Source: Chrysochromulina tobinii
Taxonomy: Eukaryota > Haptophyta > Prymnesiales > Chrysochromulinaceae
Direction: 5' to 3'
Assembly (NCBI GenBank): GCA_001275005.1
Contig: JWZX01002434.1
Span: 1-33,741 of the forward strand
Length of the DNA: 33,741 bases
The notes beneath the pieces were generated by a model, which searched no databases, was not told where the DNA came from, and saw only the letters and a list, made by a program, of their open reading frames with translations. Shown one piece after another: positions 16,446 through 33,549 of this stretch; position 1 is the first letter of the stretch; every line of letters starts with the position of its first letter. Both the position numbers and the translations under genes were made by a program.

Positions 16446-18196
16446 TCACCATCTCTGGTATTTCGAGAGGCCATCGGGGCACCGCCACGGCGTATGGCCC
16501 CGCTCGGGCGTCTCTTGCATGTCCACCTCGCGCTCGAGACAGCGCACGCACACCCCGCGTACGTAGTGGTGCTGCTTGCACAGCCGCACCTGATGAGGGA
16601 CGCAATCAGTGGCAATCGGACGCAATCAGCGGCCATCAGCGGCCATCAGTGGTGCTGCTTGCATAGCCGCACCGCCGTCTTGAGCGCGCGGCGCGCCCTG
16701 TGGGAGCGTTCCTCGGCGGCGCGCTCCTCCTCGGCCTCCTCCTCCTCGCTGCTGCCCTCGGGGTAGTGGTTGTCGTTCAGCCGCCATTTGTTAAGGAGAA
16801 CGCTCCTATTTTGGGAAGGGCGTGGCGACCCCTTTTGGGAAGGGTGTGGCGACATGGCGCTGTCGAGGGCCTCTCCCGTCTCGCTCGTGAGATTGACCTG
16901 ATTCGCGGCCAGCTCGTGCGGTTGGGGCCAACGGCGCCGCTTCCAGTGAGCGTCCGTGTCCGGCTCCTTGCCGGCGTTTGCGAGGACGCGCGCGGCGACG
17001 AGGGCGGCGTCGGGTGCTGGTGCTGGCGACAGTAACGATGGTACCTCACTGGGCAGCTTCGCGCCACGCGCGAGCTCTGCGTTTGCCGCCGCGAGTCGGC
17101 GGCGCGCGTGTAGCAACGCCGCGCGCACGACCGGCCGCGCCTAGATGGAGTTAGGGTTAGGGTAGGGTTGGGGTTGGGGTTAGGGTTAGGGTTAGGGTTA
17201 GGGTTGGGGTTAGGGTTAGGGGTTAGGGTGAACCGGCCGCGCCTTGAAAGAGCTGCCGCTCGCGCCTACGCCTGGGCTCTCAGCCTCTTCGTCGGACGTG
17301 GCCATGGCCGCCGCGTACTCGTACGATGAGCCGTTCGAGAGAGCGGCGAAGTCGGCCTCGTGCGCGCGGTCGAGCGAGACGCCGGGGCGGGCGCATGATC
17401 GAGCGAGTGCGCTCTCATTGTCCGCTAACTGCAGCAGCGTCGGAATGATGTTTGGATGGCACGCCGCGAAGCTCCCAGTCAAACGGCCACCCTCGTACTG
17501 GTCGCGCGCGATCCGAGCGAAGTCGAGCACCGCCGTCGCGGCGTGTCGCAGCTGCGTGGCGCGATGCGTCAGGGACGCGGCGCGTCTCCCCGCCTCCACG
17601 CCCGCAGAGGCGGCGACCGAAGAGCCGCCGACGGCGACGGCATCCTCGCTGTGGTACTCGGAGTGATGCTCACCCGCCTGGGCCCGTAGCGCGTTCGACA
17701 GCTCGAGCAGTCGCGTGCCGGCTGCGCTCGGGTCGGTAGCCTCGTCCGAGAGCCGGCTGACGACGGCGCGCAACTCCTCAGCGAGGAAGAGGTGCGCGCC
17801 CGCCTCGAGCAGGCGCGATCGCTCCGCGGAACCGTTGCCTGCCTGAACTCTGGACGCAAGACGGTTCTGTGCGGCGCGCTCCCGTGACGGCGTCACGTAT
17901 GCATGAGGCGGCCGCTGTTTGCCAGCGCTGGCTGGCCTCAATGGCGAGGTTGCGGTGGAGGAGCGCCACAGAGGCTGCCTGCCCGTGCCAGTCAAGGGCG
18001 GCGAGCCCTCGTCCAATGGCTGCTGCGATGATGAGGAGGGCAAGTGCCACGGCGGGGCGGGAGGCGCAGGCGTGACGAAGCCATCGAGCGCAGCCGCCGC
18101 TGCAGAGCCGTCCAAGCTCAGATCAAGCGACGCCGAAAGCTGCTGCATGCGCTGAACCGAGCGCTGCGACATCGAGGAGGTGCTGAGGCGCTCCAT
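16446..18196 (-). CDS. Unrecognised protein with two recently gained introns (3 exons)
   Basis: Exons 18196-17234, 17140-16673 and 16589-16446 give 524 residues; both introns are phase 0. No family recognised. The N-terminal 130 residues are Ser/Pro/Ala-rich. Residues about 130-310 look helical and Ala/Arg-rich (LFLAEELRAVVSRLSDEA, later RATQLRHAATAVLDFARIARDQ). Near the end of exon 2 is an acidic stretch of Glu followed by RRALKTAVRLCKQHH, and the third exon continues YVRGVCVRCLEREVDMQETP, a Cys/His pattern (C-x2-H-H ... C-x2-C) that might bind zinc. The intron at 17141-17233 is made of telomeric repeats; the one at 16590-16672 is a 10-bp-repeat introner. A good donor GTGAGA sits exactly across the terminal codons (ATG-GTGAGATGG), so the gene may continue into another exon further left. 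Coding status is inferred from long open frames that join cleanly across both introns. Confidence 0.65.
16590..16672 (-). mobile_element. Introner-like 83-nt intron of 10-bp tandem repeats
   Basis: Sense strand begins GTGCGGCTATGC and ends CTCATCAG. The first 25 nt are a near-identical copy (one mismatch) of the exon sequence just after the intron, so exon sequence is duplicated on both sides. The core is a degenerate 10-mer array: GATGGCCGCT twice, then GATTGCGTCC, GATTGCCACT, GATTGCGTCC. Using the GT at the start of copy 1 and the CAG just before copy 2 restores RALKTAVRLCKQHH-YVRGVC in frame; unspliced, the frame stops at CKQHH-TGA. The same 10-mer core occurs in the DGAT1 intron at 30828-30901. 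Confidence 0.75.
17130..17244. repeat. Interstitial telomeric repeat block flanked by 13-bp target duplication
   Basis: About 13 tandem units of TTAGGG with TTGGGG and other variants (17151-17229) on the plus strand, bounded by two perfect copies of ACCGGCCGCGCCT (17130-17142 and 17232-17244). The non-telomeric residue is AGATGGAG on the left and GTGA on the right. It lies inside a minus-strand gene. Confidence 0.95.
17141..17233 (-). mobile_element. 93-nt spliceosomal intron made of telomeric repeats
   Basis: On the minus (sense) strand the two flanking copies read AGGCGCGGCCGGT. The last two bases of the upstream copy are the GT donor (GTTCACCC) and the first two of the downstream copy are the AG acceptor (CCATCTAG). 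Splicing joins SSFKARP to ARPVVRAALLHARRRL in phase 0, keeping the frame and leaving a duplicated ARP tripeptide, the expected scar of intron gain by insertion with target duplication. Retention gives KARPVHPNP and a stop. CCCTAAC units also give plentiful branch-point-like CTAAC motifs. No transcript is available here to prove splicing. Confidence 0.7.
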
Positions 18197-19688: not shown

Positions 19689-20160
19689 TCAGCCGCGCTT
19701 AAGCCGCGCTCCGTGCACGGCTTCGGCTCCCTCAACGGACAAGAGCGATTCATCGAAGCCTTGCTGCGCCTCGAGTAGGCGCGGCAAGCACCACTCGTAC
19801 AGCGCGCGCTTCTCGTCGCGCTCGAGCTCGCGCACCTGGCCAGGCTCGAGGCCGCCAAGCCCTACAGGCCCCACCTCCAAGCGGCGCAGGTGATGCAGAT
19901 GCAGCCCCGCCTGCTTGCACAGGCGTCGGACCTGATGATTCCGCCCCTGTGAAAGCACCACTTCGACGCGTGTGACCCAGCCATCCTGAGCGCCGTCCTG
20001 AGCGAGAGGATCCTCCAAAAGGCGAGGCGCCTCCACCACATTCGTCGCCCGTCCGTCCTCAGCGTCCCCGTCCTCGGCGTCCAGCTGGGCCAGCTCCGAA
20101 AGGCAATTCGCCTCTCCCAACGCCAACGCCGCCTCCAACTGCTGCTGCTCCTGCTCCTCT

Positions 20161-20222
<62 letters not shown>

Positions 20223-29823: not shown

Positions 29824-29898
<75 letters not shown>

Positions 29899-30495
29899 TC
29901 CTCCTCCTCCTCCTCCTCCTCCTGATGATGATGCTGCTACTGCTACTGCTGATGATGATGATGCACCTGCTCCGGCTGCACCGGCTGCACCAGCTGCACC
30001 GGCTGCTGCGGCTGCTCCGGCTGGCTGCGTCGGCTCGACCACCACCGGTACCAGCGCCGGCTTCAGGCACATCATTATTAGTGCTGAGAGCCAGCCTTGA
30101 CTCGCTGCTACAGGTAGCTGCGCCATCGTCGCCTGCTGCCGAAGGAGCTTGGTTGACTGTATCCGCTCGAGCTTCGCTTCCAGCACCTGGATGTCTACTG
30201 CTGCCAGCAAATCTACGGCCGCCTCGGCTTTCGCTTCCTGAAGTTGCGCCGCACGGTCGTGCTGCATCTCCACGTAGCACTCATTCGTACCAGTGACTAC
30301 GTGCGACCTTAGTTCAGCAATTAGGTCGCGGGTTGACGCGTGCCGCAACTTTGCCGCAGCGGCCGATGAGGTCGCGACTGAGAGGTCGCGACCGGCGGGA
30401 CTGAGAGGACGTCGACCAGCGATGCTGGCGGACATGAATTTACACTCGCGTTTTGGACTGGAGAACTTCATGCCGGTACGCTCAACATGGCGCAT
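29466..30495 (-). CDS. Low-complexity polyQ/coiled-coil protein, internal splicing unresolved
   Basis: The N-terminal part starts at ATG 30495 and stays open for 245 residues; to about residue 130 it looks real, with a helical segment (DLIAELRSHVVTGTNECYVE, later AAVDIQVLEAKLERIQ) and then runs into Gly/Ala/Ser homopolymers. A second frame, open from 29936, reads the same trinucleotide run as nine Glu, 23 Gln, then PEAEEPMQQRPPPPPP, a Pro/Lys-rich linker and a basic helical C-terminus (QKLVEQQELMRRMRGD, later QSLQLAARQRRALAFALL) to the stop at 29466. Two in-frame TAG codons (29937-29939, 29943-29945) block a direct join, so an intron between about 30110 and 29936 probably switches frame; a donor-like GTAGCAGCGAG near 30110 and several CAG acceptors exist, but the exact join is ambiguous. 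No family recognised. Confidence 0.55.
29826..29894 (-). repeat. (CAG)23 tract followed by (GAG)9
   Basis: Twenty-three uninterrupted CTG units on the plus strand, with nine CTC units directly to the right (29895-29921). Read as Gln and Glu in one minus-strand frame, Ala and Gly in another. Confidence 0.97.
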
Positions 30496-30691: not shown

Positions 30692-33549
30692 TCACGCGGA
30701 GGCGTGCACGGCCTGCGTCGCATGCACATAGTAGAGCAGCACGCACAGCGGCTGGCCTACAAAGCAGAAGGTGACCCAAAAGAGGAAGTTGCCCGCCTGC
30801 TCGAAGGCGGTGCCTTGCGTGTACCTCCTGAGAAGCTTGGAGAGCGACGCAATCAGAGGTCATCAGAGGCCATCAGAGGCCATCAGCGGCCATCGACGAA
30901 CCTGAGAAGCTTGGAGAGCGGGAGCATGGGCACCTGCGACATCATGCCTACGAAGGCGAGCGGCATCCGGTACGAGTGCAGCGGGAAAGCGACGACGATC
31001 TCGTGCAGAACGGCCGAGAGGGTGAAGCACAGCAGGCCCGTGAGCACCTTTGAAGAGGTGACGTGTCGCTGGATGGGGAAGAAGGCGTGGCGCACGACCC
31101 ACATGTGGACGGGCATGTTCCACGTGCGCCAGTAGCCCTCGAAGTCGATCGCGTTCCACCACGCCTTGTAGAAGACGCGATCGCCGAAGCGCGTGAGCTC
31201 GGCCAGGAGATTGAGCCACACGTGGAAGAAGGCGTAGAAGCCGACCAGCCAGACGTATGTCACGGGTACCGCGAGGCGCAGCAGCCGGTCGAGGATCCTC
31301 GCCACATCGCCCGCCATGATCGGCTCGATGGACGTCTCGAGGAGAGGCAGCATGTACTGTACCACGAAGGCGGGCAGTAACGTCCATAGCATGATCGTCC
31401 GGAGGACGAGTGAGATCAGGTACGTCTTGCGCACGCGCGGTGTGCGAGGGTAGTCGAGCTGGTAGCACAGCGTAGGCGCGACTAGGAACCAGAGCAGGTT
31501 GCCGAAGGTCACGTTGTTCGGGTAGTGCAGGCTCGCGCCGTCGGTGTCGCTCACCGTCGAGCGGTACTTGGCAAGTCGTGCGTCGAGGGAACCTTCGGCC
31601 TCCCCTCGCGACTCCTTTCCCGCCTCGCGCAGGTCGTGGTGCACGTGCGCCCACGAGACGAGCTTCAGGAAGATCGTCACCGAGCAGATGAGCAGCAGCA
31701 CGCCGCCACCCGCGCCGCCGTAGTGGCGCTCCGTGCCCACGAGTGCCGCAGGCAGGGCGAGGGACGCGCCCACATTGATGGCATGCAGGGGATCGACGAA
31801 GCGGCGCGAGAAGCGACTGAAGGGCGTGCGCTGAACCGCGGCACGCTCCAGCCCAAACGCAAACAGGATCGGCACGGCGAGCACGGCCGCGGTGCGCAGC
31901 AGCGCGTGAAGCTTCACCTGAAGTGCGGCCCCGTCGAGAAAAGCCTCGGCGTCGCGGAGCAGATCGGCGAAAGAGGGAAGGGTGACGCGCAGACCGTTGA
32001 GGAGAAGGTTCTCGAGGAGCAGACGGAAGTTGGTCACCACAAAGAGGAGGAAGACCAGGTTGACGAACCCCGACAGGTTCGCGTGCTCGCCGCTCGGGTC
32101 GCTGCCAAATCCGCCTCCGGAGAGCAGCGACGGCTTCGACGTGCGGTGCATCGGGCGCGACGCCGGGAAGAGATTTGGGTCGAGAAACGCGCGCGGCTTG
32201 CGCGTGCCGCCAGGTGTGGTCGTCTCGCCGGGCGTGTCGGGCGCCGGCAGGGGCGGGGGCACCCCCGGCGCCTCGCCGAGCCCCACTTCGATGGGCGGAG
32301 GGCGGCACCCTTGAGAGGGCGGAGGGCGCGGCGGAGGCGCACTCAAGGGTACCGCGCTCGCCGCGGGCGACGTGGCCGACACGGGCTGCGCTGTGACGGC
32401 GGCGACGGGGGCACTCGTGGTGGCGCTGGGCAGGGCGCCCCCCTCAGCCGACGAGAGCGGCACGCCCCAGCGCACCGGCGGCGAGTACATGAGAGTTGCG
32501 AGGTTCTGATGAGACGGCACAGGCGAGAGCTGCACCGCGTCGAGCGTGCGCACCGAGCTACCCGTCGCCTCCGCAAGCGCCTCGAGCCATTTGTTCGCCT
32601 CGTGCTCGTCGGCGCAACTCGCGCGGAGCAGCGCACCCGAGCCTGGCCCGCGCTCCGAGTGCAGCGTGCCCTTGAGCCAGACCGAGAAGATGTGAAACTG
32701 CGCGCCCTTGGACTGCTTGGTGCCTTCGTCGATGACGACGCAATTCGAGAGAGGCAGCCGCTCATCCGGTACGAGCGCCGTCTCGGTCGGGTAGTAATGC
32801 AGCTGGAGTGCTCCCTGTGTATCGCGCGTGAGGACGAAGAAGCGCCGGTCCCAGCGCGACGCGCTCGAGCCCAGCCATGACCCGGCGTCAGGCTTGTACC
32901 GGTTCAGCCAGCCACGCGTCTGCTTGATCTGCTTCGTCATGCGCGCGAGCGTCGCCTCGAGCTCGACGATGCGCGCGCGCAGCACGCTCTCCGTGGCCAG
33001 GGTGCCCTCCGAGCTGCTTGCGCCGCCACCGACCGGCGCCGGCTCCACCGCGGCCGTGGCAGCGGTGCCCGCCGCCGCAGCCATGTGCCCCGACTGAAGC
33101 TCGTGCACGATGGAGATGTATTTGGCCTTAGCGTCGGCGGGTGCTCGGCCGCGCCGACGGGACCAGCTCGACCATTTGGTGTGGTCGATGACCAAGTACG
33201 CGGGCGGCCCCTCGGCCGGAGCGTCGCCGCACGTGCCCTGCTTGTAGTAGGAGTATAGGCGCAGGCGCTCCTTCATGGGCAGCTGGTCACGGATCTTGTT
33301 GACGTGTTCGCTCGCTCGCTCAAAGTCGGCGTCATACGGCGTGGCCGCTAAGCTCTTGTCAAGCCTGCTGCTCCGACGGCGCGCCCGAGCATCTCGCTTC
33401 CACAGGAAAAAGTAGGCTGTTGCGACCGCAAGCAGCGTGGCGAGGGCCGCAGTAGGAGGCGCGGATGGCCAGTCGGCGAGCGGCGCGCCTTCAGCCTTGG
33501 GCTTCGAGGGGGCACTGCGGCGGTTGAACGGGTTTGGAATGTTTGGCAT
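30692..33549 (-). CDS. DGAT1: ACBP-PH-DGAT1 fusion: acyl-CoA:diacylglycerol O-acyltransferase 1 (2 exons)
   Basis: Exons 33549-30902 and 30827-30692 give 927 residues; the 74-nt intron is a young introner. The C-terminal part (about 500-927) is the MBOAT enzyme DGAT1, which makes triacylglycerol in the ER: VDPLHAINVGASLALPAAL, LHYPNNVTFGNLLWFLVAPT, AFFHVWLNLLAELTRFGDR, FYKAWWNAIDFEGYWRTWN-PVH and SAVLHEIVVAFPLH, with the probable catalytic His, then the spliced end RRYTQGTAFEQAGNFLFW. N-terminal to this are a membrane span (about 32-50), an acyl-CoA-binding domain at about 72-155 (LPMKERLRLYSYYKQGTCGD, then W and A-AKYISIV), a short coiled coil (about 190-210), and a PH domain at about 211-330 (TRGWLNRYKP ... 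RRFFVL ... KWLEALAEATG), then a long Pro/Ser linker. Plant and animal DGAT1 (about 490-520 residues) lack both extra domains. The start is the first ATG. Confidence 0.92.
30828..30901 (-). mobile_element. Introner-like 74-nt intron of 10-bp tandem repeats in DGAT1
   Basis: A perfect 20-bp direct repeat CCTGAGAAGCTTGGAGAGCG (plus strand) occurs at 30901-30920 and 30827-30846. Between the copies the sense strand reads TTCGTC, then GATGGCCGCT, GATGGCCTCT twice, GATGACCTCT and GATTGCGT: five degenerate 10-mers. Splicing from GTTCGTCG at the end of the first copy to CTTCTCAG at the end of the second restores PLSKLLRRYTQGTAFEQAG exactly as the uninterrupted gene would read. Unspliced, the protein stops at LLRFVDGR. 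The core 10-mer array is shared with the intron at 16590-16672. Confidence 0.82.

Follow-up and report, generated by a model that had tools for sequence, protein, structure and literature searches.

Candidate introns made of telomeric repeats flanked by target duplications in exons of Chrysochromulina tobinii

The origin of new introns is a long-standing question, and few cases have been caught in the act. The window analyzed here, a 33,741-nucleotide stretch of contig JWZX01002434.1 in the 53.15-Mb draft assembly (2253 contigs) of Chrysochromulina tobinii, raises this question at a single gene, where a degenerate array of TTAGGG-type repeats lies between two copies of a short duplication in the coding region. 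We took TTAGGG to be telomere sequence because several contigs begin or end directly with arrays of it. The question is whether such an array could be an insertion into an exon that is removed from the transcript as an intron. Judging from sequence, we consider it likely that a telomeric repeat was inserted into an exon of this gene with duplication of its target and is removed as a candidate intron, and that similar events occurred at other genes.

The gene carrying the array lies on the minus strand and encodes an uncharacterized protein, with its ATG at 18196 and its stop codon at 16446 (Table 1; exon ends are predicted). Pfam searches of its two larger window ORFs returned no family. Four homologs were found, namely P0001 (92% identical over its whole length), P0002 (98% over 62%), P0003 (51%) and P0004 (42%), and the C-terminal part past the insert was recognizable in P0001, P0003, and P0004. 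The host gene is single copy, as a search of the whole assembly with P0001 matched only three stretches, all in the window, at E <= 0.001. The two copies of the duplication are spaced 102 bp (34 codons) apart, which puts the flanking ORFs in one frame; with homologs spanning both sides and a single-copy gene, the treatment of the two flanking frames as one gene in the initial annotation of this DNA was well founded. Exon 2 also contains a 21-bp direct repeat (1 mismatch) with a 24-bp period at 16809-16853, PSQKGSPRPSQNRS, which is present in diverged form in P0001 (PSQNGSPRPSQIRS). Elsewhere in the window, long CTG/GCT triplet arrays at 20139-20222 and 29825-30028 read as poly-Gln in a minus-strand frame.

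The annotation had described about 13 telomeric units between perfect 13-bp duplications, and we recovered both features. We counted 13 C-rich units (8 CCCTAA, 3 CCCCAA, 1 CCCCTAA, and 1 CCCTA) in the 89 bp between the copies, TRF detected the array independently (17150-17229, period 6, 13.3 copies), and exact searches found AGGCGCGGCCGGT at both ends of the array on the minus strand and nowhere on the plus strand of the window. The insert lengthens the gene by 102 bp and brings in an in-frame stop, which the sense frame reaches after FKARPVHPNP. We regard it as improbable that the array is translated, or truncates the protein, rather than being an intron. By the genetic code, only one of the three frames of a pure 6-bp repeat of this kind is closed, whichever strand is read, the arrays at loci L047 and L039 are open in frame and could be translated, and the protein record P0002 stops within the array; against this, the window frame stops soon after entering the repeat, and the C-terminal stretch that would be lost is similar in P0001, P0003, and P0004.

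Comparison with two of the homologs suggested what the gene looked like before and after the insertion. P0001 reads SSFKVRPVVRAAL (SSFKVRPVV), with a single copy of the residues doubled in the window and no repeated ARP. The P0001 locus is a probable empty site, as judged from a protein record in which a GC-AG-spliced product would look identical. P0002, which comes from a separate source, reads SSFKARPVHPNP and then ends, matching translation into the window array, and thus this second record appears to carry the array as well. That telomeric reads were wrongly joined into the gene during assembly is conceivable for a draft of so many contigs, but we hold such an artifact to be extremely unlikely, since P0002 enters the same array in a separate source and several loci with duplicated targets would need identical faking.

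An exact 13-mer common to the 25-bp flanks is rare by chance. Among random pairs of unrelated flanks drawn from the loci examined in the genome, 65 of 300,000 shared one; for pairs separated by 79 bp within a single locus, a control that also contains tandem repeats and genuine duplications, the figure was 516 of 100,000. In a less refined test, the 150-bp window flanks scored 27 in local alignment, against a median of 18 and a maximum of 30 for 60 random stretches, and did not stand out from this control. These figures bear on the idea that an existing intron or a short CCCTAA-like motif expanded by slippage, the duplication being a coincidence or an old exon repeat. Variant units do cluster by locus, as slippage would produce (CCCCAA in the window and L048, CCCTGA in L033 and L072, CCCGAA in L050). 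We nonetheless find slippage very unlikely given the rarity of the shared 13-mer in both samples, the single copy in P0001, and the flanking duplications found at many other arrays (below).

Two introns can be drawn at the window duplication (Table 1). The initial annotation had taken the AG and GT at the ends of the duplication as acceptor and donor and had stated that their use keeps the frame with a duplicated ARP; the computed product, FKARP/ARPVV, bears out the latter point, but the GT-AG intron is the weaker of two options, as the GC-AG candidate has a better donor context and adds no ARP. Removal of the GC-AG candidate takes out exactly the inserted length and leaves the single-copy protein. 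With the +2 base excluded, the donor context scored 4.32 bits at the GC site and -0.34 bits at the GT site, in a model trained on 15 donors inferred from introns in the examined loci (training range 1.34 to 5.29 bits). At L033 the junction reads CAG/GCGCGG, with GC as in the window, and the first copy and array there contain no GT. We tentatively favor GC-AG over GT-AG for the window, where the sequence allows both donors; GC is a minority donor in this genome. The core of the annotation's proposal of an intron arising by telomeric insertion is thus retained (one continuous gene, an array that is most likely spliced out, and further loci alike), but with a different splice site.

Table 1. Features of the host gene (positions in the window; a slash marks a splice junction)
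Feature	Position	Strand	Basis
Exon 1	17243..18196	-	stretch 17231-18196 93% identical to P0001 1-326
First (5' in sense) copy of 13-bp target duplication AGGCGCGGCCGGT	17232..17244	-	exact string match
Telomeric array, degenerate (CCCTAA predominating, with CCCCAA units); 89 bp, short non-telomeric ends counted	17143..17231	-	
Second copy of 13-bp duplication AGGCGCGGCCGGT	17130..17142	-	exact string match
Preferred intron model, GC-AG, 102 nt, AAG/GCGCGG...ATCTAG/GCGCGG, restores FKARPVV	17141..17242	-	predicted
Alternative model of the initial annotation, GT-AG, 93 nt, CCG/GTTCAC...ATCTAG/, adds ARP	17141..17233	-	predicted
Exon 2	16673..17140	-	stretch 16622-17152 86% identical to P0001 319-495
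Second putative intron, 10-bp-unit array, GCG/GTGCGG...CATCAG/GTGCGG	16590..16672	-	predicted
Exon 3 and stop codon	16446..16589	-	stretch 16449-16601 92% identical to P0001 475-525

Pattern searches of the assembly, which required 15-18 perfect bases and can miss degenerate arrays, located 31 internal telomeric arrays besides that of the window; the genome total is thus at least 32, and these 32 were examined. The annotation had proposed scanning all introns of the genome for CCCTAA arrays with flanking duplications of 8-20 bp. Among our 32 arrays, duplications at or above a cut-off of 12 bp were present at 12, with lengths of 13-51 bp. They were exact in the window (13 bp), L035 (30 bp), L037 (47 bp), L044 (13 bp), and L050 (35 bp) and contained mismatches in L033 (25 bp), L034 (51 bp), L036 (31 bp), L043 (15 bp), and L047 (33 bp); the 25-bp duplication of L068 had mismatches and non-telomeric sequence between copy and array, and that of L072 (about 31 bp) had mismatches and a small indel. 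L070, with an 11-bp duplication, fell under the cut-off. In a flank-alignment control of 60 random stretches per locus, which covered the duplicated loci except L068 and L072, the score of L036 (52) equaled its control maximum, and the control maxima of L033, L035, and L036 were inflated, apparently by draws matching the same repeats. The last base of the longest perfect run fell at TTAG in 10 of the 32 arrays and at TT in nine, and we discarded array end phase as a telomerase signature, as the ends of the 32 arrays were not clearly non-uniform. The repeats at L042 and L071 were also set aside as target duplications, since they lie inside subtelomeric-looking repeat DNA. On the contigs of L038, L041, L061, and partly L059, TCATTTCTTCTCTCATTCTCCTCTTTTGACCCC adjoins the telomere array, and it is perhaps a subtelomeric motif.

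Thirteen of the 32 arrays lay inside genes (window, L033, L034, L036, L037, L039, L044, L046, L047, L048, L050, L068, and L072), and in all 13 CCCTAA was the sense strand (two-sided sign test, 2.4e-4), where genes were placed by a codon model trained on window genes, by translations, and by homology, with array orientation visible while judging. Since a pure repeat is open in two frames out of three on both strands, avoidance of stops alone cannot explain this bias. Splicing would account for it. The annotation had suggested CCCTAAC units as branch points, and with CCCTAA in sense, the array would permit both a pyrimidine tract and a branch point. A transcription-linked bias in insertion could also produce the same orientation. 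The 19 arrays left out include two whose array was not between coding stretches, L049 (at a gene end, TTAGGG-sense, which would count against the bias) and L051 (just past an ORF stop, CCCTAA-sense). L043 has a duplication and no clear gene, the gene strand at the duplicated locus L035 was only probable, L052 lay outside any clear ORF, and no clear coding on both sides was seen at L031, L032, L038, L040, L041, L045, L053, L065-L067, L069, and L070.

Several in-gene arrays were not accepted as new or clean exonic cases. At L034 and L050 the duplication covers an apparent pre-existing donor, the L036 array lies within an intron, the L046 array is in a gene beside an intron of 10-bp type (see below), and that of L072 precedes such an intron. 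At L034 (2297-2432) a 15-bp duplication, ACGTCAGTCTCGACG, borders an older intron of a ceramidase gene on both sides, and the apparent donor of this intron was duplicated when the telomeric repeat came in. At L050 (2566-2717) a 76-bp unit starting AGGTACAGC stands in tandem beside the telomeric insert, which looks like repeated duplication of one splice site.

At six loci (window, L033, L037, L044, L048, and L068) the array closes the reading frame, and its removal with the GT-AG or GC-AG boundaries of a spliceosomal intron reopens it. Five of these came from a survey covering 181 kb, a large share of which had been selected around telomeric arrays. The restored frame at these five is partly by construction, since a duplication was retained only where its excision left the coding frame open again. 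L048 was noticed on visual inspection. The survey returned 14 rows, two of them both strands of L068. All five telomeric loci (window, L033, L037, L044, L068) had AG/GT or AG/GC in the duplication, which was not a survey requirement, with AG/GT at L037, L044, and L068 and AG/GC instead at the window and L033. The four rows of 10-bp type (L033 twice, L043, and window 30827) had it too, and it was lacking in L034, L042, the reverse strand of L068, and two rows of the window that fall in EGF-like repeat sequence. In random coding segments of the five lengths the chance of AGGY ranged from 0.09 to 0.34 each, with a product of 1.2e-4. The L047 duplication contained no AGGY.

Proteins joined across these junctions resembled their relatives. 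L044 encodes a MATE transporter whose joined junction aligns gap-free to P0008; among its relatives (42 of the 120 listed were examined) the matching stretches read through the junction, and P0011 ends near it. The joined L037 protein matches P0005 (91%), P0006 (89%), and P0007 (58%), and the stretch LVRFH.RGN.G.R.WL occurs once in each of the three. L068 is FemAB-like; the joined protein scores 463 bits and spans positions 1-368 of a 369-position profile, versus 268 bits for the upstream piece alone. L048 is heparanase-like (GH79), with 60 bits for the joined protein and 35 bits for the upstream frame left unspliced, and it aligns to heparanase chains across the junction with a 2-residue gap nearby. 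No Pfam family was found for L033, L037, or the L072 piece. The candidate intron of L048 is 94 nt of wholly telomere-type repeat with some CCCCAA units, TTCACCG/GTAACCCTAACCC...CCCTAG/GCGGCA, and its boundaries, G/GTAACCC...CCCTAG/G, leave a duplication of at most about 2 bp.

Telomeric arrays are not the only short repeats that appear to interrupt genes here. The second putative intron of the host gene is an array of 10-bp units with a 26-bp duplication (1 mismatch, window 16565-16673), and at window 30827-30920 a 20-bp exact duplication surrounds 54 bp made up of 10-bp repeats; the gene there looks like an acyltransferase, which we take to be DGAT/MBOAT, and removal of CAG/GTTCGT...TCTCAG/ reopens its frame. 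Insertions of 10-bp units with duplications of 20-35 bp occur at window 16565 and 30827, at L033 851 and 1403, and at L072. The end of this family, GATTGCCTCCCTCATCAGGT, has 666 exact copies genome-wide versus 0 for a reversed-pattern control. Typically, the family ends with CCTCATCA/G and its duplication starts with G/GT. The two bases after CATCAG, which by duplication would also be the donor, were GT in 666 genome-wide matches, GC in 133, and GA or GG in 71; some of these matches sit in tandem arrays, and of the GC matches only one of five checked (at four loci) had a matching long duplication. At family junctions with a duplication in the examined loci there were nine GT and one GC. Judged by these features, the 10-bp family in the host gene does look like an introner. 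Its ends recur in tandem every ~58-84 bp at C1300:5082-5412, C806:5430-5650, C1061:17114-17292, and C699:1402-1725, as if insertion or duplication struck one site repeatedly.

The 10-bp arrays raise the possibility that the telomeric repeat is just one filler in a general process of intron gain, in which any short repeat (a 10-bp minisatellite, telomere sequence, or a local duplication) could patch breaks or nicks with an offset of some 13-60 bp and telomerase need not take part. We would give this a little less than an even chance; it overlaps with telomeric insertion as proposed above, the difference being where the repeats come from. The occurrence of 10-bp arrays with long duplications in the window, L033, and L072, the abundance of the family, and the overlap in duplication lengths between the 10-bp and telomeric cases are all in its favor. 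However, the 10-bp family has a common end and a duplication that typically starts at G/GT, whereas splice-site positions and array ends vary among the telomeric cases, and because of these differences the two need not share a mechanism.

Returning to telomeric insertion, we propose that a staggered break in an exon would be repaired with telomeric repeat and filled in, duplicating 13 bp of target in the window gene. The duplicated target would supply an AG/G(T/C) proto-splice site, and the C-rich sense strand (CCCTAA) would offer the pyrimidine tract and CTAAC branch points, whereupon the spliceosome would remove the array with one target copy and restore the old mRNA. At L048, the break would have fallen between two Gs, instead of an AG/GY in a duplicated target. 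Insertions of other kinds would be lost or, rarely, translated. We infer telomerase as the maker of the repeats at the break by analogy with what the sections of PMC7215372 used here propose for mammalian interstitial repeats. A stronger form of the proposal, to which we give an even chance, is that the C-strand telomere repeat is a ready-made intron, G/GTAACCC...CTAAC...CCCTAG/G, between two Gs, making telomerase repair of exon breaks a standing source of introns, pure at L048 and accompanied by a target duplication in five genes, that of the window included.

Introns can arise from a tandemly duplicated segment containing AG/GT, which becomes both donor and acceptor, and in studies of intron gain in Daphnia and potato, breaks and duplicated AGGT are reportedly involved. 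Recently gained introns are described for Daphnia populations (PMC4202315), and for a potato gene tandem duplication is given as the source of an intron (PMC4974935). The consulted sections of PMC7215372 describe short TTAGGG arrays inserted at double-strand breaks into previously empty sites in mammals; in horse, direct duplications attributed to staggered breaks are found at few loci (duplication alone at 3 of 66, and two more with deletion and addition), and none of the human arrays covered there is exonic. In contrast to the mammalian arrays of those sections, duplications of 13-51 bp here flank 12 of 32 arrays, and several exonic arrays are candidate introns. Introners, as treated in the main text of PMC9860276, create an intron by insertion, can take splice sites from the target duplication, include GC donors, and form families that share a sequence; the duplications of earlier families given there are 3-9 bp, and a Chrysochromulina example has 4 bp. 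The telomeric cases differ in having only the repeat unit in common, with ends and variants that are not shared, and in the length of their duplications, 13-51 bp at 12 of 32 arrays and at most about 2 bp at L048. Neither telomer nor tandem appears as a word in the main text of PMC9860276, and we found no report of telomeric-repeat introns among the matches listed for the open-licence literature, as represented by titles and abstract openings. We would place the telomeric cases within intron gain through insertions at breaks, as a distinct form of it.

With a recognizable insert, a duplication scar that orients it, and several loci in one small genome, the route from break to intron becomes directly testable. 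Our results suggest that telomeric repair of a break in an exon can be nearly harmless if the inserted piece is spliceable, which would explain why the in-gene arrays of this alga lie with CCCTAA in the sense orientation.
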